Positions 14,773 through 27,012 of a DNA stretch of 64,000 nt are shown in pieces. This DNA comes from Anaerolineaceae bacterium oral taxon 439 (lineage in GTDB: Bacteria; Chloroflexota; Anaerolineae; Anaerolineales; Anaerolineaceae), in the NCBI GenBank assembly GCA_001717545.1, contig CP017039.1, forward strand, positions 2,170,001 to 2,234,000. Reading direction: 5' to 3'. Position 1 is the stretch's first letter. Each line of letters starts with the position of its first letter. The notes under the pieces were generated by a model. It did no database searches, was not told where the DNA came from, and worked only from the letters and a program-made list of their open reading frames with translations. A program made the translations under genes and the position numbers.

Positions 14773-15564
14773 TTAAAAGTTATCCGGCGGAAAGAGAAAA
14801 TCGTCCGGTTCCGGCTCGAAATCCGCCTCGTCGAACGCGCCCGGCGGTCCTTCCGGGCGGCAGTACGTCCGATAGCGGCACCAGGAACACGTCTTCAAAT
14901 CCTGCGTCCGCGGATAATCGGCCTCATCCTCCGACCGCATCAGCGCCGCGTACGCTTCCAGCCGGCGCAGGTCCTCCCGGTACGCCGCCTCCGAATAATC
15001 ATCGAACTCGATCGGGCGATCCGGGAAATTCGCGAACCAGTACGCCATCCGAAGCCGGGGAAAAACGTCCGCCGGCAGCCCCAGATCGACACGGTTTTCC
15101 ACTGCCAGCGCGCGGTAAAGTCCTGTCTGCGGCGCGGCGGCGTAGGCTTCGCGCCGGGCAGCCTTCCGCGCCGTTTTCCAATCATAAATCGTCAGCCCGC
15201 CGCCGTCGACGGTCAATAAATCGATTTTCCCGTTCCAAAGAACGTCCGCCTGACGCATCGTCAACCGCATCTCAGCGTAGACGGTCCCTTCCGCCGGAAG
15301 CCGAACCGTATCGCGGAACCGCTGAAGCCAAAGCTGGATTTCGCCGTCCGCATTGCTGATCGCGCGCTCGATCGGTAAAAGCCCCTGCGCAACGCGCTGA
15401 ACCGTGAGATGAAACTCGGAGCCCATCCGCGTCAGCTGGTCCGCCTTAAGATAATCGCGGTCAAACGGTTCCGGCCAATCCAGCCGCTGCACAGAACTAT
15501 AATAATACTTCCGGCGACAGCTCAACAACGCCGAAACCTGCGACGCGCTGAATTCCAACGTCAT
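14773..15564 (-). CDS. Stand-alone Fe-S PD-(D/E)XK nuclease (AddB/RecB C-terminal type)
   Basis: This 263-residue protein matches the nuclease module normally found at the C-terminus of AddB or in Cas4-like proteins. Nuclease motifs are NGKIDLL (D near 115) and IYDWKTA (D128, K130). One cysteine near residue 16 (LLSCRRKYYY) and three near 226-235 (CSWCRYRTYC) fit the C...CxxCxxxxxC pattern of a 4Fe-4S nuclease. I place the start at ATG 15564, where GGAGGGG precedes it; the start overlaps the helicase stop as ATGA. It is the last gene of a three-gene repair-like operon and would cut DNA unwound by the helicase. Confidence 0.85.
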   Translation of the reverse strand: MTLEFSASQVSALLSCRRKYYYSSVQRLDWPEPFDRDYLKADQLTRMGSEFHLTVQRVAQGLLPIERAISNADGEIQLWLQRFRDTVRLPAEGTVYAEMRLTMRQADVLWNGKIDLLTVDGGGLTIYDWKTARKAARREAYAAAPQTGLYRALAVENRVDLGLPADVFPRLRMAYWFANFPDRPIEFDDYSEAAYREDLRRLEAYAALMRSEDEADYPRTQDLKTCSWCRYRTYCRPEGPPGAFDEADFEPEPDDFLFPPDNF

Positions 15565-17879
15565 TTCGCTTTCCCCTCCCGATCCGCCCCGCCGAAGCTT
15601 TCCCTGAGCGCGCGGACCGCGACCGCCTCGCACATCGGCGTCCGCATTTTCCCCAGGTTTCGCGACCCGTACAGACCTTTCTTCGCCCGGGTAATCCCAA
15701 CGTACAGCAGCCGCAGCCGCTCCGCCGCGTAGGCGTCGGCGCTCCGCCGCGTCGCCTCCCCTTCGATATAGGTCCGGGGCGGCTCGGAACAGAGGCAGAC
15801 CATCTGCTCGATCGTTTCCGACTGCAAATCCAAACGCCCGCGCGCGTAATAGACCTCGGACCGATAAAACTCCGTATAGCCGTTTTCTTTATATCCTTTT
15901 CCGATCGGAAAATCATAATTATTCAGCGAAGTCAGGTATACCTGGTCCCATTCCAGGCCTTTCGCCTTATGATACGTCGTGACGACGATCTTCCCGCGAT
16001 AAAGCCCGGGATCAAACTCGCCTTCGTCGCCGCCCTGTCCCGCGACGACCTCGGGACGCTTCGAAGCTTCGATGATCTGCTCCGCCATGGTATCGAAATT
16101 CGCGAACGGGTCAGCCTGCGTCGCGCGCAGCACCGCGCCGGCCAGCCGGTTGGCAATACTCAGGTCGACCGGATCGATAAAAACGTCCTGCGCGATCAGG
16201 AGGACCAGCTGATCGATCCGGATCCCGCGCGCTTCGAGCCATTTCCGAGCCAGTTCCCGGATCCGGACGATCGTCTGGAATACGATCTCGTCCCCGCCGA
16301 TCGACCGGAGGCACGTCTCGAAATCGTCCTCCGAAGCCGGATAGAAGAAATCGACAACTTTTTCCTGCCGGAACTGCGTCAGAATTCGGAAAACCTGTTC
16401 CCGTTCCGGCTCAGTCAGGTAAAAATCGAGCTCCCGCGGACGGGCCAATAAAACCTTGACAACGTCGATAAACTCGTTCTTCATCACCCGCGGACGCGCC
16501 AGCCATTTAAAAATTGTCGATAAAATCTTCCCGGCGTCCCGGTCCTGCGGCGAACTTTGCAGGAATTCGACAACCTCGATCTCGGAACTCCGCAGATAAT
16601 CGGAAAACCTGACCCCGCGATCGTTCGTCGGCGCCAGGATCGCGATCGTCTCGTCCGGATACAGCTGCGTATGGCGAACGGCCAGATTCCCAATCACGGC
16701 GACTTCCTGATCCGCCGTGTATCCCTTCGGATCAAAGACGACCCGAAGCGGCTCATCGCGCGGGTTCGGGCTCGAATCGTTCCCGGGCGTCAGGTGAATA
16801 TACGGCTCCGTCAGCGCGGCGCGCATCATCGGGATCGGATGATCCCCGATTGTCCAGCGAATCAGCCGGTTCGCGCAGCTCAGGATCGACTTCGTCGACC
16901 GCCCGGAACAATCCAGGTCGACCGTCCGGTCCGCCTCCGCCAAAAAGTTTTTCAGGTACGCCGGATTCGACGTCGTAAACGAAACGTTAATCGCCTGATT
17001 CGGGTCGCCGACGCGAACCCAGTTCCCCCGCTCGCCGACCAGCAGCCGCAGCACGTTTTCCTGAATCGCCGAACTGTCCTGCGCCTCGTCCTCAAGGATA
17101 AAAGGCCAGCGCTCACGCGCGCGCTTCAGGCTGACGCCGTCCGAGCTCAGGATCCGATACGCGTACGTCATTAAATCCTCATAATCCATCCCCGGATACG
17201 CCGCCAGCTTCGCCTGATACTCGGTGTAAACGTCCGCGGTCAGCGAAAGCAGCCGATAATCCCCGAGTTCGTCGTCCTCCGCTTCCGCCAGCGCGCCATG
17301 CAGCTGACGCGCGCTGATCCCCAGGTCCTTCGCCCGTTTGATCACGTTTTGACAGATCGATAAAACCTTATCCTTCCAGGAATCCTGAAAAACCTGTTCC
17401 AGGTAATTCGCCTTCATCGAATCGGACCGGACCGCGTCGAAGGCTTCCCGAAGCCGCGCGGTCGGGAGCCGGTCGATAATCTTTTCTAAGATATACGACG
17501 AAGTCAGCGCGTCAATAATCGTCGCTTCCGGGTCCAGCCCCAGATTCGCGCCGCCGCCGCGAACGATATCCGCGGCCATCGAATGCAGCGTGCGAACCTC
17601 GTACCCCACCCCGGGAACCAAACCCCGCTCGCTCATCAGCCCGGCAATCCGCGCCTTGAAGTTATTGACCGCCGAATTCGAAAACGTCACGACGAGAACG
17701 ACAGGTTCCGTTCCAGGAATAAACGGACTGCTATACGAATGAATAATCGCTTCCGCCAGCTTCGCCGCCAGCATCGCAAGCGTATGCGTCTTTCCGCTTC
17801 CGGGAACGGCGGAAACGCCCAGCGTCCCGCTTTCGTAAGTCAGGATTTCAGCCTGCGCCTTGCGCGGAATAAATTTCAT
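15561..17879 (-). CDS. UvrD/Rep/AddA-like superfamily 1 DNA helicase
   Basis: The 772-residue protein has the full set of SF1A motifs: Walker A AVPGSGKTHT (K30), motif II FILEDEAQDSS, motif III VRVGDPNQAI, motif V TYHKAKGLEWDQVYL and motif VI LLYVGITRAKKGLYG. It should translocate on single-stranded DNA and unwind duplex. It lacks the C-terminal nuclease domain of AddA, which fits a separate nuclease gene. ATG 17879 has GGAGGG seven bases upstream, and its ATGA overlaps the stop of the gene before. The coupling at both ends suggests a stoichiometric complex. Confidence 0.92.
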   Translation of the reverse strand: MKFIPRKAQAEILTYESGTLGVSAVPGSGKTHTLAMLAAKLAEAIIHSYSSPFIPGTEPVVLVVTFSNSAVNNFKARIAGLMSERGLVPGVGYEVRTLHSMAADIVRGGGANLGLDPEATIIDALTSSYILEKIIDRLPTARLREAFDAVRSDSMKANYLEQVFQDSWKDKVLSICQNVIKRAKDLGISARQLHGALAEAEDDELGDYRLLSLTADVYTEYQAKLAAYPGMDYEDLMTYAYRILSSDGVSLKRARERWPFILEDEAQDSSAIQENVLRLLVGERGNWVRVGDPNQAINVSFTTSNPAYLKNFLAEADRTVDLDCSGRSTKSILSCANRLIRWTIGDHPIPMMRAALTEPYIHLTPGNDSSPNPRDEPLRVVFDPKGYTADQEVAVIGNLAVRHTQLYPDETIAILAPTNDRGVRFSDYLRSSEIEVVEFLQSSPQDRDAGKILSTIFKWLARPRVMKNEFIDVVKVLLARPRELDFYLTEPEREQVFRILTQFRQEKVVDFFYPASEDDFETCLRSIGGDEIVFQTIVRIRELARKWLEARGIRIDQLVLLIAQDVFIDPVDLSIANRLAGAVLRATQADPFANFDTMAEQIIEASKRPEVVAGQGGDEGEFDPGLYRGKIVVTTYHKAKGLEWDQVYLTSLNNYDFPIGKGYKENGYTEFYRSEVYYARGRLDLQSETIEQMVCLCSEPPRTYIEGEATRRSADAYAAERLRLLYVGITRAKKGLYGSRNLGKMRTPMCEAVAVRALRESFGGADREGKAK

Positions 17880-20086
17880 TCGCCCTCCGCTTCGCTTTCC
17901 GACCCATCCTGAGCGAGCGTTTCGAACCAGTTCTCGTCCCAAAGCCCGGCCTCCGCCGGATCGTTGCCCGCGATCGGAGGCATGTATTCGATCGGGAGCT
18001 TCGGCTGGAGCCGCGCGCTCAGGTCGGCGAACAGGTACAGCAGGTTTGACTTCTGATCCAGGCCCGACTCGTTCAGCTCGCTCGCGTAAACGTAAATCCG
18101 CTCGCCGCAGCGCGCCAACAACGACTGCACCAACCGCTGCATTTCAACCTGGTTCCGCTCGTATTTCCGATAATCGTCCCAAACGTCGCCCTCGCGCCAT
18201 CCCGTCGAGAGGACGGCGTCGTTCGTCAGCGTCCCCATGATCCGTTCCCACCAGCGCGGAGACCCGGCGTTCAGCCAAACCTGATAACGGAACGGCCGGT
18301 TCAGACCGATAAACCCGCCAGCCAGCGTCATCAGGATCGAATTTTCCGGAAATATCGCCGCGTTATCGCGAACCGTCGCCGAAACCATGCCGTCGGCAAC
18401 CGCGCGCATGTACATTCGCCAGGTCAGCCGGCCTTCCGGAAGCGCATCCATCGCTTTCCGATACTTCTTGAGCGAATCGATCAACTTGATAAAACAAAGC
18501 GGAAACGATTCGGCGACCGACCCATGCGCGGCAAAACCCGGCTGTGTCAGGACGTTATGAAAAAAATCGGAGACGGCCTGATCCGGGGGCGTTTCGTCGT
18601 CACGACGCGCTAAGATCCATTCGCTCATGCGGTCGAACGCGCTCAGAAACACGGGGGAACATTCCCTCGTATCTTTCTCGGCCATCTCTTTCAACCGCTT
18701 CGGCGTAAAACGGACCGTTCCGTCCGGCTCGGCCGCCGTTTCAAACGCTTTGACGACGAAAAGCTGAAGCCGAAGCGGATCGATTCCCGGGATAAAAAAC
18801 CGGAGCGTCTGGACCAGGTCCAGGTTCCGGATCGGATATCCCCAGCCGGGCCGCAGCAGCGCCAAAAACGTCAACAGGCAGCGCGACTCGATTTCCACCG
18901 CCAGGCCGCGCGACGCCCGAAACGCGAACGCGCGCAGGTTTTTCAGCCGCAGTTCCCGCTCGAACATCGTATACGTCACATCCGAAAGCAGCGGCGCAAT
19001 AATCACAATATCGCGGCAGTCTACCCCCTGTCCATGAACCAGCGCGGCGATATCGCGCGCCGCGTCCTTAATCATGCGCGGGTAATAATGCGTCAGGTGG
19101 AAACGGAAAGCCTCGACCGGGTTCCCCGGAAGCGACGCGGACGGGGCGTTCGGATTTTCGATCACCGCCGCCAGCGCCCTGACCGAACCGGAGGATACGA
19201 ACGAGTCGCTCAAGACGCCGGTCCGGTCCGCCCCATCGCGCAACTTCCGCGCCGAATCCGGATCGCCGCCCATAAACGTCCGGAACCCGCCGAGCTCGTC
19301 GTAAATCGCCAGCGAGGAATCGACGATATCGCGAATCGAGAGTCCGAACGCGTGCGCAAGCGGGATATCCTCTTCGACATTGTCATGGACAAAGAACTGA
19401 ATATGGTCCTGGAGCCAGCGCCGGTAGAGCGGATTTCCCGCCAGGCAGCGCTGATAAATTTCAAGCTGGAGCGCGAAATCGAGCATGTTATCCGCACGGC
19501 AGGTCTCCTTAAACGAGAGCCCCAGCCGTTGAATCAGATCGAAAACGGATCGCATCGTCCCGTCGCCGCTCCAACTCGACTTCATGCGTTCGGCGTACGT
19601 CTCGAACGGGAAACCCGCCGCCGCCATTTTATGCATCGCCATCGTCGCCTGATTCAGGAACCGGCTCAGCGTCCATTGCAGAACGTTAAACGCGCCGCCT
19701 TCCCAAAGCGGTTCGGCGACCGATTGGAGAACGACCTGCGCCGTTTCAATCGTCAGGAATAAAGGCGCGGATCCGCCCGCCGAATAACCCGCCTCCTCCG
19801 CGATCAGCGGCCAGAACAGGTTGAGATTCTGCTGCACGAAGCCGTTAAACGTCGTCACCCACGCGCTTCGTCCATCTTCAGTCCGAATCCCACGGTACGC
19901 CTCCCCAGCGGACGCGACCGGCGTAAAAACGAGCGTCCGCTTTCCCGCCCGCTGGGCGCTGAGCATGCGCCGGACGCGCGCGCAGCCGACCGTCGTCTTT
20001 CCGGCGCCGGGAATCCCTTCAATAAAGACGCGCCCGGTTAACGGCGCTTCCACGATATTTTTTTGCGCTTCCGTAAGTCGATCCAT
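17876..20086 (-). CDS. AddB-like P-loop protein with degenerate helicase motif II
   Basis: This 736-residue protein starts with an SF1-like Walker A (FIEGIPGAGKTT, K30) and FTPVASAGEAYRGI as motif Ia. Where helicases have DExQD it reads FFVHDNVEEDIPLAHAF. Later segments include VDCRDIVIIAPLLSDVTYTMFE and ASRGLAVEIESR, as in the AddB/RecC second half, but there is no nuclease domain. I infer a structural or regulatory partner of the downstream helicase. ATG 20086 is chosen because homology-like sequence begins there; upstream codons read as random. Its ribosome site is weak. It overlaps the helicase by four bases. Confidence 0.75.
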   Translation of the reverse strand: MDRLTEAQKNIVEAPLTGRVFIEGIPGAGKTTVGCARVRRMLSAQRAGKRTLVFTPVASAGEAYRGIRTEDGRSAWVTTFNGFVQQNLNLFWPLIAEEAGYSAGGSAPLFLTIETAQVVLQSVAEPLWEGGAFNVLQWTLSRFLNQATMAMHKMAAAGFPFETYAERMKSSWSGDGTMRSVFDLIQRLGLSFKETCRADNMLDFALQLEIYQRCLAGNPLYRRWLQDHIQFFVHDNVEEDIPLAHAFGLSIRDIVDSSLAIYDELGGFRTFMGGDPDSARKLRDGADRTGVLSDSFVSSGSVRALAAVIENPNAPSASLPGNPVEAFRFHLTHYYPRMIKDAARDIAALVHGQGVDCRDIVIIAPLLSDVTYTMFERELRLKNLRAFAFRASRGLAVEIESRCLLTFLALLRPGWGYPIRNLDLVQTLRFFIPGIDPLRLQLFVVKAFETAAEPDGTVRFTPKRLKEMAEKDTRECSPVFLSAFDRMSEWILARRDDETPPDQAVSDFFHNVLTQPGFAAHGSVAESFPLCFIKLIDSLKKYRKAMDALPEGRLTWRMYMRAVADGMVSATVRDNAAIFPENSILMTLAGGFIGLNRPFRYQVWLNAGSPRWWERIMGTLTNDAVLSTGWREGDVWDDYRKYERNQVEMQRLVQSLLARCGERIYVYASELNESGLDQKSNLLYLFADLSARLQPKLPIEYMPPIAGNDPAEAGLWDENWFETLAQDGSESEAEGE

Positions 20087-20282: not shown

Positions 20283-22619
20283 ATGAAAAACCAGAACCAA
20301 ACCGTCAAAGTTTTAAACCTCCTCCTGACCGTTCTCGCGGTCTTAACGCTGTTCGCCGCGGCCTGCGCGCAGGAGCAGCCTGAAACCGATGAAGAAGACC
20401 TGATCGAATACCCCAATCCTGAAAGCCCCGACGAGAACGCTGAATTCCCGCCCGAAACTCCCGACGAGACGGGATACTTCGGCGTCAGCGCCGAGGACCT
20501 CGCCGCTTTGGACCAGATCTATAACCAGATGACTGAATTCGGGCGTTCGAATTCCGGCTGGTTCGGCGCGAACCCCGATGTCTGTTCCTGGATGGGATTA
20601 GGCTGTGAAAACGGCTCGATTGTCCGCTTTTCGTTCGATAACGTCGAGTTTTTCTGCGAAATACCGTCCGCTTTAACGGCGCTTCCGGCGCTTCGCGAAA
20701 TCCACCTGACGAACACGCTCCTCCGCGGAGTCGTTCCGGATAATTTCCTTCAGAAGGATACCCTCGAACAGGTTGACCTCAGCAATAACCTGTTGACCGG
20801 GCCAATCCCGGAAAACATCTACGCTCCAGGCCTGCAAAATCTTACGTTATCCGGAAATAAGCTGACCGGAGAAAAACAGCAGATGCTGAACGAACGGCCC
20901 AATCTGGCGCAATGTGAGGCGAACCTGACGATCGACCCCTATCGGGAAATCGATCTGACGCCCGGAATCGACGGCGGAATTCCGCCGTCGATCGGAGGCT
21001 TATCGGTAATGAGCCGGCTCGATCTTTCCGGGAACAACCTTTCCGGCGCGCTGCCATACGAAATGACGTATCTATGGTCTTTGGGCTCGCTTTTCCTGAA
21101 CGACAATAACACTGAGCAGCCGTTGATGACCGATCACCCCGAAGTTATCGCCAAATTAGAAATGATTCCGGATAAAAATATCGACGGCGTCGTACTGGCA
21201 AGCCCGCCGACAGTCGAGATTCCGACCGAAGTTCCGACTGATACGCCGGAGCCGACCTGGACGGAAATCCCGACTGAAATTCCGACCGACACGCCGGAGC
21301 CGACCTGGACGGAAATCCCGACCGAAATTCCGACCGACACGCCGGAGCCGACCTGGACGGAAATCCCGACCGAAATTCCGACCGACACGCCGGAGCCGAC
21401 CTGGACAGAAATCCCGACCGAAATTCCGACTGACACGCCGGAGCCGACCTGGACGGAAATCCTGACCGAAATTCCGACCGACACGCCGGAGCCGACCTGG
21501 ACAGAAATCCCGACCGAAGTTCCGACCGACACGCCGGAGCCGCCGACAGCCGTTCCGCCGACGGCCGTTCCACCGACAGCCGTTCCACCAACAGCCGTTC
21601 CACCGACAGCCGTTCCACCGACAGCCGTTCCGCCGACAGCCGTTCCACCAACGGCCGTTCCGCCGACGGCCGTTCCGCCAACGGCCGTTCCACCGACAGC
21701 CGTTCCACCGACAGCCGTTCCACCGACAGCCGTTCCGCCGACGGCCGTTCCGCCGACGGCCGTTCCGCCGACGCCGATCGTTATTACAGTCATTCCACCA
21801 ACCGCTGTCCCGCCAACACCGATCGTCATCACGGTCATTCCCCCGACGCCTGTCCCGCCGACCACCGGTCCTATCATTATTGAGTGGGTCACGGCAACGA
21901 GCCAGCCGTTCTACTGGGCTACCGCCACGCCGCAGCGCAACTGGATGACTGCGACCCCGTATTGGCGATATCAGACCGCGACGCCGATGCCGTATGTTCC
22001 GCCGATCTGGGTGTATCCGACCGCGCCGTCGAATCCCAATTACGTCTATCCAACGTCGCAGCCCAACGTCAATCCGAATCCGCAGCCGCAGTCGACCTAT
22101 TACACGCCGCCGCGGCGGACCGCAGCGCCGCCGAGTAACTGGACTCCGTTCGCGCAGGTCCCGACGGCGACAAAAGCGCCGACCGTCAACCCCGCCTCTC
22201 AATTCGGCTTCACGTACGATTCGGCAGCAATGACCGCGGAACGGCTCCCGGTCTCCTGGAAATATACGGGGATGGACTCATACATGATCAATTACCTGAC
22301 TAAAAATAAGACGCTCTTCCCCGGATTCGCGATGGAATGGACAACGGCTGATAAACTCTGCACCGGGACATCCTGCAAATTTGAGATCCTGAATATCCCG
22401 ATGGACCTGCTCAAAGACGGCGTCTTCTATATCCAGCTCCAGGGACGCGATAAATCAGGACGCGTCTATCAGAGCGATCCGATCGGTCTCCAGGCCGCCG
22501 TAACGCCGGAACCGTCCGCAACGCCGGTCCCGGAAGAAGTCGAGGAAGGGAACTGGTTTACCCGCTTCCTGAAATGGCTCTTTGGACCGATTATCCGCTT
22601 GTTCGGAGGCGACGCATAA
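20283..22619 (+). CDS. Leucine-rich-repeat lipoprotein with two long Pro/Thr repeat arrays
   Basis: This is a 778-residue surface protein. Residues 1-28 form a lipoprotein signal (LLTVLAVLTLFAAAC, Cys28). After an acidic linker, residues ~60-285 contain plant-type leucine-rich repeats (LEQVDLSNNLLTGPIPENI, MSRLDLSGNNLSGALP). Then come about seven 16-residue units of IPTEIPTDTPEPTWTE and fifteen PPTAV units, a Tyr/Trp/Thr/Pro stretch, a globular Ig-like C-domain (~635-740) and an amphipathic end (NWFTRFLKWLFGPIIRLFGG). The arrays probably act as a stiff spacer across the envelope that presents the LRR or C-domain. No enzymatic motif is visible. Such Pro/Thr linkers are common in Anaerolineae. 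Confidence 0.85.
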   Translation: MKNQNQTVKVLNLLLTVLAVLTLFAAACAQEQPETDEEDLIEYPNPESPDENAEFPPETPDETGYFGVSAEDLAALDQIYNQMTEFGRSNSGWFGANPDVCSWMGLGCENGSIVRFSFDNVEFFCEIPSALTALPALREIHLTNTLLRGVVPDNFLQKDTLEQVDLSNNLLTGPIPENIYAPGLQNLTLSGNKLTGEKQQMLNERPNLAQCEANLTIDPYREIDLTPGIDGGIPPSIGGLSVMSRLDLSGNNLSGALPYEMTYLWSLGSLFLNDNNTEQPLMTDHPEVIAKLEMIPDKNIDGVVLASPPTVEIPTEVPTDTPEPTWTEIPTEIPTDTPEPTWTEIPTEIPTDTPEPTWTEIPTEIPTDTPEPTWTEIPTEIPTDTPEPTWTEILTEIPTDTPEPTWTEIPTEVPTDTPEPPTAVPPTAVPPTAVPPTAVPPTAVPPTAVPPTAVPPTAVPPTAVPPTAVPPTAVPPTAVPPTAVPPTAVPPTAVPPTPIVITVIPPTAVPPTPIVITVIPPTPVPPTTGPIIIEWVTATSQPFYWATATPQRNWMTATPYWRYQTATPMPYVPPIWVYPTAPSNPNYVYPTSQPNVNPNPQPQSTYYTPPRRTAAPPSNWTPFAQVPTATKAPTVNPASQFGFTYDSAAMTAERLPVSWKYTGMDSYMINYLTKNKTLFPGFAMEWTTADKLCTGTSCKFEILNIPMDLLKDGVFYIQLQGRDKSGRVYQSDPIGLQAAVTPEPSATPVPEEVEEGNWFTRFLKWLFGPIIRLFGGDA
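21219..21539 (+). repeat. 48-bp tandem repeat (about 7 units) in the LRR lipoprotein
   Basis: Units encode IPTEIPTDTPEPTWTE with small changes (one Leu for Pro, Val for Ile at the ends). High DNA identity between units suggests recent slippage or recombination. Confidence 0.9.
21540..21764 (+). repeat. 15-bp tandem repeat, 15 units, in the LRR lipoprotein
   Basis: Fifteen consecutive PPTAV codon blocks, each of the form CCG-CCG-ACR-GCC-GTT with silent changes. Length variation between strains is likely. Confidence 0.93.
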
Positions 22620-25084: not shown

Positions 25085-25816
25085 ATGACGCCCCTGAACG
25101 AACTCGCAACCGCGGCTCAGCCTTTCCTCGGCTTCCAGCTCACCCCGTCACAACTCGACCAGTTTGAGCGCTTTCTATTCGAAATCCTCGAATGGAACGC
25201 GAAATTCAACCTGACCGCGATCCGCGACCCTGAATCGATTCGCGTGAAACATTTCCTCGATTCCCTGACCGTCGCGACAGGGACCGGCGATCTGAACCGG
25301 AAGACGCTCGCCGACGTCGGGACCGGGGGAGGCTTCCCGGGAATCCCGCTGAAAATCGCGTTCCCGGAACTGAAGCTGACGCTGATCGATTCGATCGGGA
25401 AAAAGCTGAAATTCTGTGAACGCGTCTGCGCGCTTTTCGGCTGGACCGACGTCGTGACGCTGCATGCCCGGGCCGAAGACGCGGGCCGCATGGCGCAGCT
25501 TCGGGAGCGGCAGGATTTCGCGGTCGCCCGCGCCGTATCGCGTCTCCCGGTTCTCTGCGAGTACCTGATGCCGCTCGTGACCGTTGGCGGCGCCATGCTT
25601 GCGCAGAAATCCGCTGACTGCGACGAGGAAATCGCCAGCGCGAAAAAGGCGATCACGCTCCTCGGCGGCGCGTTCGAGTCAAGCCTCCGATTCGAACTCC
25701 CAGGCGCCGGCGGCGAAACGTCCGGCCGCGCCCTCGTCGTCATCCGCAAGCGCAGCTCAACGCCGGCGGCTTACCCGCGTCAGGCCGGGATTCCGCTCAA
25801 AAAACCGCTCGGCTAA
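25085..25816 (+). CDS. rsmG: 16S rRNA (guanine-527-N7)-methyltransferase
   Basis: This 243-residue protein uses SAM to methylate G527 in the 530 loop of 16S rRNA. Characteristic segments are WNAKFNLTAIRDPESIRVKHFLDSL, the SAM-binding DVGTGGGFPGIPLKI, TLIDSIGKKLKFCERV, RAEDAGRM and the C-terminal YPRQAGIPLKKPLG. It has no ribosome site and probably a leaderless message. Its stop overlaps the recF stop on the other strand (25813-25816). Confidence 0.96.
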   Translation: MTPLNELATAAQPFLGFQLTPSQLDQFERFLFEILEWNAKFNLTAIRDPESIRVKHFLDSLTVATGTGDLNRKTLADVGTGGGFPGIPLKIAFPELKLTLIDSIGKKLKFCERVCALFGWTDVVTLHARAEDAGRMAQLRERQDFAVARAVSRLPVLCEYLMPLVTVGGAMLAQKSADCDEEIASAKKAITLLGGAFESSLRFELPGAGGETSGRALVVIRKRSSTPAAYPRQAGIPLKKPLG

Positions 25817-27012
25817 ACCATTCCCTCTTTCAGCAGGATACCATCACGGACTTCCCAAATCGTCCGGCTCCCCAGGAACTCAGACGAAAAAAACTTCAAG
25901 TCCGTCGTCGTCACGATCCCCTGACCGCATTCGTCCAGCAGCCGCATCAGCTCCCCACGCCGTCCCGCGTCCAGCTCAGAAAACGTCTCGTCGAGGAGCA
26001 GCAGCGGCGCCGTCCCCTTCGCCTCCCGAATCCAGTCGACCTCGGCAAATTTCAGCGCCAGCAGGACCGTTCGGACCTGACCGCGGGAGCCATAAACGCC
26101 GACATCAATTCCATTCGTCACAACGCGCATTTCATCACGATGCGGCCCGATCGTCGAAACGCCGCGCCGGATATCCTGCCTGCGTCCGGATTCGAGCGCC
26201 GTCCGGACCGCCATGGTAATTCCGGCGATCGCTTCGGGTTCCGCTTTCCCGTCCGCGCCGACGAGCTCCGTCAGCGTCAGATCTGCATCGCTCAGCGCCG
26301 GCCGGTACCTGAGCGACATCACCTCGTTCCGCCCCGTCAGTCGCTGCAGCGCGGTATCCGCCAGCCGCTCCAGCGTTGCGATCGCCCGGGCGCGATGATA
26401 AATCAGGAACGCCCCCTGCCCGGCCAGGAGCTCATCCCAATAAGCCAGCTGCCCCGGATCGCCGCCGCGCTCGTTTAGCGTCCGAAGAAGCGCGTTCCGC
26501 TGCAGGACCGCACGCGCATAGCGGCTCAGCGTCCGAGCGTAACCCGGAACCGACTGCGACAGGAGGATATTCAGGTAGCGCCGCCGCTCCGCGGGCGGTC
26601 CGCTGATCATCTCCGTCATCTGCGGAAGGAACAGAACCGCCGGGAACTCGCCGACGGCGGATTGCGCCGTCGTTTTCCGCCCGTCGAGGAGGATTTCTTT
26701 CCGAAGCCGCCGGGTTTCCCGCTCGCCTTCTAATATCAATCGGATTTCCAGCTTCCGCTTCTTTTCCCCAACCGCGTATGCAGCAACGATCCGCGCGACA
26801 GCCGGGTCCTCCTCTTCCGCCTGAAACCGGATGAGCTGCCGATCCTGACCCGCAAGAGACGTCGAAAACGTCGCGCAATAAAATAAACTTTCGAGAATGC
26901 TCGTTTTCCCAACCGCGTTCCCGCCCCGCAATAACAAAATCCCGTTCGGAATATCGCTTTCCAAACGGGCGTAAGAACGAAAATTCGTCAGCGACAGCCG
27001 TTCAAGCCGCAA
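25813..27012 (-). CDS. recF: DNA replication and repair protein RecF
   Basis: This 399-residue SMC-like ATPase helps load RecA at gaps. Motifs are LTNFRSYARLE, Walker A RGGNAVGKTSILESL, the signature region YGSRGQVRTVLLALKFAE and Walker B APLLLLDETFSELDAGRRGELM. It is longer than the usual ~360 residues, from extra residues in the middle. The start is TTG 27012 with GAGGCGG upstream. It lies 14 bases after def on the same strand, away from dnaA and dnaN, which are its common neighbours. Confidence 0.95.
   Translation of the reverse strand: MRLERLSLTNFRSYARLESDIPNGILLLRGGNAVGKTSILESLFYCATFSTSLAGQDRQLIRFQAEEEDPAVARIVAAYAVGEKKRKLEIRLILEGERETRRLRKEILLDGRKTTAQSAVGEFPAVLFLPQMTEMISGPPAERRRYLNILLSQSVPGYARTLSRYARAVLQRNALLRTLNERGGDPGQLAYWDELLAGQGAFLIYHRARAIATLERLADTALQRLTGRNEVMSLRYRPALSDADLTLTELVGADGKAEPEAIAGITMAVRTALESGRRQDIRRGVSTIGPHRDEMRVVTNGIDVGVYGSRGQVRTVLLALKFAEVDWIREAKGTAPLLLLDETFSELDAGRRGELMRLLDECGQGIVTTTDLKFFSSEFLGSRTIWEVRDGILLKEGMV

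Follow-up and report, generated by a model that had tools for sequence, protein, structure and literature searches.

Among the described bacterial enzymes of DNA-end resection, AdnAB, RecBCD and AddAB stand closest to the locus considered here. In AdnAB, AdnA and AdnB each have a C-terminal nuclease on the same chain, and in RecBCD, RecC is a helicase-fold partner without motor motifs; RecJ, a 5′–3′ exonuclease of single-stranded DNA, and GajA, the OLD-family ATPase-TOPRIM protein of Gabija (GajAB), also enter the comparison. RecC carries a dead nuclease domain (PMC1185551). It has been reported that in AddAB the AddB nuclease degrades the 5′-ended strand and leaves a 3′ overhang, and that Chi halts the cutting of the 3′-ended strand by the AddA nuclease (PMC4824097). 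The subject of this study is a set of three adjoining genes (hereafter the trio) in a stretch of 64,000 nucleotides from Anaerolineaceae bacterium oral taxon 439 (contig CP017039.1, positions 2,170,001 to 2,234,000 of the forward strand), the whole of which is called the window. The trio is composed of a pseudo-helicase (gene 1), a helicase (gene 2) and a free Fe-S nuclease (gene 3), and it is on balance probable, though by no means certain, that it is an AddAB-like DNA-end-resection machine equipped with 5′-strand nucleases only, which would deliver a 3′ overhang to RecA without Chi. The gene content, the motifs, the predicted folds, the co-inheritance and the operon shared with recJ are established below.

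Architecture of the trio

The three genes lie on the minus strand and are read from position 20086 down to 14773 in the order gene 1, gene 2, gene 3. Their coordinates, lengths and strand, as well as the overlap at both joints, had been given by an earlier sequence-only reading of this DNA, and the translations and the positions of the open reading frames (ORFs) agree with it. The features are as follows (aa, amino acids; AF2, AlphaFold2; SF1A, helicase superfamily 1A):

17876..20086, minus strand: gene 1, SF1A pseudo-helicase of 736 aa, AddB-like layout without the nuclease domain (translation; AF2 fold)
19994..20017, minus strand: Walker A GIPGAGKT of gene 1 (K30 in 66/66 ungapped of 68 sequences)
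19370..19384, minus strand: DNVEE of gene 1 in place of motif II DExxQ, with Asn for the catalytic Glu (conservation)
17876..17879, minus strand: ATGA overlap of four bases, gene 1 stop and gene 2 start
15561..17879, minus strand: gene 2, UvrD/PcrA-type SF1A helicase of 772 aa without a nuclease domain (PF00580, motifs, AF2)
17076..17090, minus strand: motif II DEAQD of gene 2 (translation, alignment)
15561..15564, minus strand: ATGA overlap of four bases, gene 2 stop and gene 3 start
14773..15564, minus strand: gene 3, free Fe-S RecB-family (PDDEXK_1) nuclease of 263 aa, AddB-type (PF12705, profile comparison)
15175..15183, minus strand: catalytic DWK of the nuclease (39/39 sequences)
14860..14889, minus strand: CxxCx5C, three of the four predicted Fe-S cysteines, the fourth being C16 (four Cys in 39/39)

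Among 20 loci of relatives, picked for spread and not at random, the trio is adjacent and in the same order in 17, at 25–46% protein identity to the window. When start codons are picked by script, the joint of genes 1 and 2 is an overlap in 16 of these 17 intact loci, and that of genes 2 and 3 in 12. The remaining three loci, which lie outside the 17, all belong to one family (f12), whose trio genes are scattered to varying degree; they (L047, L048, L050) were considered as cases of a lone gene 1 and rejected, with genes 2 and 3 located at a distance of about 9 kb or more, or on separate contigs (the contig of L050 ends 1.4 kb past gene 1). Since adjacency and order are kept in 17 of 20 loci, and since N236 and the Walker lysine of gene 1 are conserved, the trio is more than a chance arrangement. 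Translational coupling alone is, of course, no proof of a fixed subunit ratio.

Gene 1 was aligned from 87 distinct matches, of which 19 with coverage below 70% were removed; because the 68 sequences left include copies of a single gene cut at different places, they do not represent 68 independent genomes. In this set N236 of the DNxEE motif is Asn in 68/68 and D235 is kept in 65/68. Because Walker A is intact while the catalytic Glu is replaced by Asn, the protein would be expected to bind ATP without turnover. DNVE is no departure from AddB, since the consensus of 13 canonical AddB proteins of the same phylum reads VDGF at the motif II position and likewise lacks the catalytic Glu. In Pfam the protein matches the N-terminal UvrD region only, weakly and under the cut-off; the same profile search of the protein gave no nuclease match, and no room for a nuclease is left after the helicase fold. 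The AF2 model, made from a 21-sequence alignment, is a full SF1A helicase fold (pLDDT 85.5, pTM 0.82), and structure comparison of this model assigns residues 1–697 to the UvrD/AdnB/AddB type. The earlier description of a 736-aa protein with Walker A, DNVE at motif II and no nuclease is thus right.

As for its kinship, gene 1 aligns by HHalign with AddB at E 5e-14 over 596 columns, collinear to the C-terminus of the AddB helicase-like module, with PcrA at 1e-14 over 472 columns, and with AddA at 1e-6; ADDB_N is matched by 3 of 21 members, weakly (best E 0.016). In structure, UvrD, PcrA and Rep entries score highest (Z up to 28.9, mostly at about 9–10 Å rmsd); AdnB reaches Z 25.4 (621 residues aligned, 4.4 Å) and AddB Z 21.4 (576 residues, 5.8 Å). 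Structural comparisons of genes 1 and 2 return UvrD, PcrA, Rep, AdnB, AddA, AddB and RecB, and no single family. A specific link of gene 1 to AddB had appeared in a first profile comparison against a single PcrA sequence; this was given up when the advantage disappeared with an 11-sequence PcrA profile. The profile search against AddB that the sequence-only reading proposed does give a match, and PcrA is equally close.

Gene 2 matches PF00580 (E 6e-38) and UvrD_C, and all its SF1A motifs are present and invariant in 18 aligned sequences; motif conservation was taken from this set, a larger alignment (52 of 98 sequences kept) possibly holding PcrA-type proteins. The C-terminus lies about 40 residues past motif VI and gives no nuclease match, and the AF2 model (pLDDT 82.9) has the fold of UvrD/AdnB/AddA, in line with the earlier claim of a helicase with all motifs and without a nuclease. 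Profile comparison places it nearer to PcrA (9e-47) than to AddA (1e-31), and against the NCBIfam model addA_Gpos it scores 60 bits, the cut-off being 708. In a tree of 43 sequences the helicases of the trio group in a single clade (support values 0.94 and 1.0), apart from seven AddA proteins. A frame of 1180 aa in genome G208 was set aside as a helicase fusion: it is merely a stop-free upstream frame.

Gene 3 is a PDDEXK_1 protein (PF12705, E 1.6e-24) with one upstream Cys followed by CxxCx5C. Its His, Glu, Asp, DWK and four Cys are found in 39/39 sequences, and the Tyr of QxxxY in 38/39. By profile it is an AddB-type Fe-S nuclease, the AddB nuclease being matched at E 5e-11 and that of AddA at 7e-4; a search of PDB sequences with its profile gives AdnB as best match (E 1e-6) and no AddB entry at E 10 or below. 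The earlier statement that this free 263-residue Fe-S protein is the only nuclease is right within the trio, and needs extending where recJ joins the operon, as it does in many relatives.

Distribution, the long RecJ and coexisting AddAB

In a protein search of the window genome and 150 relatives, gene 1 was matched (E ≤ 0.001) in 101 of 151 genomes, including some fragments at contig ends; within the window's family it was matched in 82 of 91, mostly once per genome. A sample of 300 genomes of the phylum, each at least 90% complete, was then searched by profile, and strong matches (best E ≤ 1e-156) came from 38 genomes, all within the window's class. That is to say, the gene is at full strength in 38 of 47 class genomes and 0 of 253 others, the class members being counted from the kinship column and the listing order, with 161 unmatched genomes unlisted. 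The other 81 profile matches are weak (E 1.7e-11 or worse), lie mostly around Walker A, and come from one genome inside the class (G313) and 80 outside. Gene 2 (E ≤ 1e-150) is present in 38/38 class carriers of gene 1 and 0/9 non-carriers, whose best trio-helicase match of 3.6e-25 is at the level of other UvrD-type proteins; gene 3 is present in 34/38 carriers and 0/9 non-carriers. In f12 all three genes occur in 19/19 sampled genomes despite the scattering. Genomes with the same trio, for which the sequence-only reading had proposed to look, are therefore plentiful, and the trio is a class-wide system.

Eighteen more genomes that the protein search had left without a match gave none for gene 1 with the profile either (0 of 18), although that profile was strong in the 300-genome sample; a piece of the trio helicase occurs in 2 of the 18, both times at a contig end. 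In two trio-free genomes (G306 and G431; loci L182 and L183), UvrD-like proteins of 1025–1026 aa with a C-terminal extension were seen.

In many relatives a fourth gene follows. Of the 17 intact loci, 12 (12 among L039 to L054, and L154) have a long recJ directly behind the nuclease, its start, again chosen by script, lying at -29 to +36 bases relative to the stop codon of gene 3. Among the five others, four belong to the window's genus, and the fifth has a long recJ 3.2 kb downstream; of the four, one has the genome's only RecJ, of the short type, 2.8 kb downstream, and another meets a contig edge soon after the nuclease. The operon RecJ is an extra copy, with an open frame of 758–845 aa compared with 567–670 aa for the housekeeping RecJ. 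In 37 genomes searched, 15 of 28 gene 1 carriers have a second, long RecJ; none of the 9 non-carriers has it, nor any second RecJ over the cut-off (in G263 the single RecJ sits in a 1182-aa frame). No second RecJ came up in this search for the window genome or for four more genomes of that genus (in G012 the single one is in two pieces), and the window genome has its single RecJ at another place on the chromosome. Within this genus the extra recJ seems to have been lost; the full system has four genes, and the window form is probably a reduced one.

A tblastn search of plasmids with gene 1 gave a match in another phylum, on plasmid pSR56 of Salinibacter ruber M8 (L150, 10001–17884). The annotations there read, in order, hypothetical protein, ATP-dependent helicase, PD-(D/E)XK nuclease and recJ, that is, all four genes. 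Because the plasmid helicase nests inside the trio-helicase clade of the 43-sequence tree, beside L043, transfer of the trio to the plasmid from the lineage of the window's class is suggested. A weak match on an Ilyobacter plasmid was rejected, being annotated as a lone UvrD-domain protein. Since two single-protein scans of genome contigs and one viral profile scan confirmed no relative, spread beyond the window's phylum is known only from the Salinibacter plasmid.

The window genome is a single contig of 2.95 Mb. It has two proteins with the UvrD N-terminal domain (PF00580), namely the trio helicase and a PcrA-like protein of 768 aa from the first Met, and so shows no AddA-, RecB- or AdnAB-type protein. 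Its PDDEXK_1 proteins are also two, the trio nuclease and a 240-aa ORF (L002, 1207–1929). Searches with PF00580, PF12705 and ADDB_N found no canonical AddAB-type enzyme, the PF00580 result being the stronger, since ADDB_N misses some AddB (it matched 3 of 14 control genomes, over the cut-off in 2), so that AddB counts are lower bounds. A normal addAB elsewhere in this genome, which the sequence-only reading had asked to be looked for, was thus not found in these searches, and the fold of the 736-aa protein is of the AddB/AdnB/UvrD kind.

In the class at large the picture is mixed. Canonical AddB is over the cut-off in at least 21 of the 300 genomes, at least 7 of which carry gene 1 (G028, G059, G101, G114, G216, G271 and G352); in six of the seven an AddA of 1092–1167 aa adjoins AddB, and in the seventh a 420-aa piece sits at the end of the contig. 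With a model that is not sensitive to every AddB, 31 of 38 carriers, among them the window, gave no AddB over the cut-off. An absence of addAB from trio genomes thus holds for those 31 at this sensitivity, and fails for at least 7 of 38. Among the nine class non-carriers ADDB_N is over the cut-off in only two (G224 and G306), so AddAB does not simply stand in where the trio is lost. Since at least 7 of 38 carriers have canonical AddB besides, we take the trio for a system of its own in this class and not simply for a fragmented AddAB.

Of the surroundings of these genes, the following was observed. The 240-aa ORF of L002 has CxxCx5C and is a solo Cas4-like protein, and the 3.4 kb inspected there hold no helicase ORF; the gene right after it we take to be an NAD kinase. 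Adjoining the trio on the other strand, at 20283–22619 of the window, is a leucine-rich-repeat-like protein in which TPEPTWTEIPTEIPTD and PPTAV are repeated in long tandem arrays. The ORF at 25813–27012, about 6 kb from the trio, is presumably recF from its motif, and is close to ribosomal-protein-like genes.

Proposed mechanism and rival explanations

In the mechanism that we favour, gene 2 would be the ATP-driven 3′–5′ motor, and gene 1 would be the second SF1A module, probably binding ATP without hydrolysis and serving as a scaffold or a guide of the 3′ strand, like the helicase-like domain of AddB. Gene 3, the separate AddB-type Fe-S nuclease, would be expected to cut the 5′-ended strand, and in many relatives a dedicated long RecJ would be co-made from the same operon; the window's genus would rely on gene 3, perhaps together with its single housekeeping RecJ. 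Since the retained nucleases would all act on the 5′ strand and the AddA-type 3′-strand nuclease is missing, the 3′ overhang could pass straight to RecA with no need of a Chi switch-off. From gene content and folds, we infer the formation of a complex, its strand polarity, its independence of Chi and its role in recombination. If this is true, most sampled members of a bacterial class process their DNA ends by an undescribed machine. The trio would test the need for a 3′-strand nuclease and for Chi control in resection, nature having seemingly removed the former and kept the rest, and the coupling with recJ would unite the AddAB-type and RecFOR/RecJ-type pathways of the textbooks in one operon.

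Several findings weigh against this mechanism. In the carriers with a canonical AddB the trio is not the sole resection enzyme, and 7 of the 9 trio-free class genomes are also without an ADDB_N match, so the class can apparently dispense with both. Four genomes of family f16 (G286, G368, G397 and G410) keep genes 1 and 2 while gene 3 is undetectable, although three others of that family (G178, G383 and G424) do have it; in two of the four exceptions (L169 and L170), inspection by eye found neither a nuclease gene nor a replacement adjoining genes 1 and 2. For 13 of 28 carriers, including the genome of the window, the search brought up no long RecJ. As regards the likeness to AddB, gene 1 ties between AddB (5e-14) and PcrA (1e-14) in E-value, and UvrD-type entries exceed AddB in structural Z, so a shared origin with AddB is undemonstrated. 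In addition, the ionic latch described for AddB (E129–R629; PMC4824097) could not be matched in gene 1, where the salt-bridge residues align unclearly; a long loop (about residues 605–637) is close to the latch position in the AF2 model and the alignment.

The question of origin can be separated from that of function. It is rather unlikely that the trio descends from AddAB by a genuine split, with AddB giving rise to genes 1 and 3 and the nuclease being lost from AddA, a history that would be compatible with the resection mechanism. As such a split would have it, the helicase-like module of AddB aligns over its whole length with gene 1, and the nuclease at the C-terminus of AddB with gene 3; however, gene 2 is nearer to PcrA than to AddA, gene 1 is no nearer to AddB than to PcrA, the trio helicases form a clade of their own apart from the seven AddA proteins, and canonical AddB coexists in at least seven carriers. 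What survives of the sequence-only reading is therefore an AddAB-like division of labour in a coupled operon, and its wording of an AddAB "split into three" or "reduced" finds no support as it stands.

With regard to function, the same activities could chiefly degrade incoming linear or plasmid DNA, as a defence or a barrier to DNA uptake, which we regard as improbable. The best PADLOC match of gene 2 is GajB (E 1.7e-37), and the N-terminus of gene 1 also matches GajB (E 1.1e-5), but these matches come from the UvrD core, which is generic, and GajA is matched by neither partner gene. The four-gene set is plasmid-borne in Salinibacter, and a transposon screen in Synechococcus elongatus reported that loss of six genes (ago, cas4, uvrD, recJcy, rpoD2 and a PD-(D/E)XK gene) favours the RSF1010 plasmid and also aids natural transformation (PMC10653904). 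On the other hand, presence of gene 1 in 82 of 91 genomes of one family, mostly in single copy, is not what is expected of a patchy island system; the window neighbours look, from their translations, like transporter, ribosomal-protein and other household genes; and no phage record matches gene 1. The linkage to recJ and the coexistence with AddB in at least seven carriers would also suit a function with RecJ in the RecFOR pathway, in the processing of gaps or stalled forks and not in double-strand-break resection. We hold this to be just as improbable as defence, for a motor, a pseudo-motor and an Fe-S RecB nuclease are the make-up of an end-resection enzyme, and 31 of 38 carriers, the window included, have no AddB over the cut-off of a model not sensitive to every AddB. 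The resection mechanism without Chi remains the one we prefer.

Comparison with known systems

With Gabija the trio shares a UvrD-type helicase (GajB), but its nuclease family is unrelated: genes 1 and 3, which flank gene 2, match no GajA model in a profile search that covered the operon proteins. In the literature on UvrD and Cas4-like proteins, fusions of the two are linked to defence, and an unfused UvrD/Cas4-like operon, mostly of Clostridiales, was judged non-defensive by the authors (PMC5704561). The latter resembles the trio by its description, in that an unfused UvrD helicase stands beside a pfam12705 nuclease; it differs in that the section on this operon, as far as its text was available, mentions no pseudo-helicase, and recJ is absent from the available text of the paper (PMC5704561). 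The cas4, uvrD, recJcy and PD-(D/E)XK genes of S. elongatus are, by the published description alone, strikingly alike in kind to the trio plus recJ (PMC10653904), and it has been reported that many cyanobacteria have two copies of recJ and that Synechococcus PCC7942 has no recCD (PMC5101192). Titles and abstract openings of papers on AddAB, AdnAB or RecBCD in Chloroflexi, on split AddB and on RecJ-UvrD-Cas4-like operons yielded no description of this system.

RecBCD resembles the trio in its RecB-type motor and helicase-fold partner, but the trio has no RecD-like gene and no nuclease on its motor. The likeness to AdnAB of mycobacteria lies in the two SF1A modules, AdnB giving the longest low-rmsd alignments to gene 1; the differences are that neither helicase-fold protein of the trio carries a nuclease and that one of its motors is dead. 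The closest likeness in layout is that to AddAB of the B. subtilis type, which also combines one active SF1A motor, a partner with Walker A and a dead motif II, and a four-Cys Fe-S RecB-family nuclease. However, what AddB unites on one chain, the pseudo-helicase and the Fe-S nuclease, is encoded by two genes in the window as in each of the 17 intact loci; the motor has no nuclease, whereas AddA ends in a RecB nuclease; in many relatives recJ is part of the operon; and canonical AddAB may share a genome with the trio. The trio thus lacks two defining features of AddAB, a nuclease fused to the motor and a nuclease fused to the pseudo-motor. In the boldest reading, which we put forward tentatively and think more doubtful than the resection role itself, it could be a fourth kind of bacterial end-resection enzyme, assembled apart from AddAB, AdnAB and RecBCD from a motor, an ATP-binding dead motor, a free AddB-type Fe-S nuclease and a dedicated RecJ, all acting on the 5′ strand, which would produce 3′ overhangs independently of Chi, be the default of its class and be movable by plasmid.

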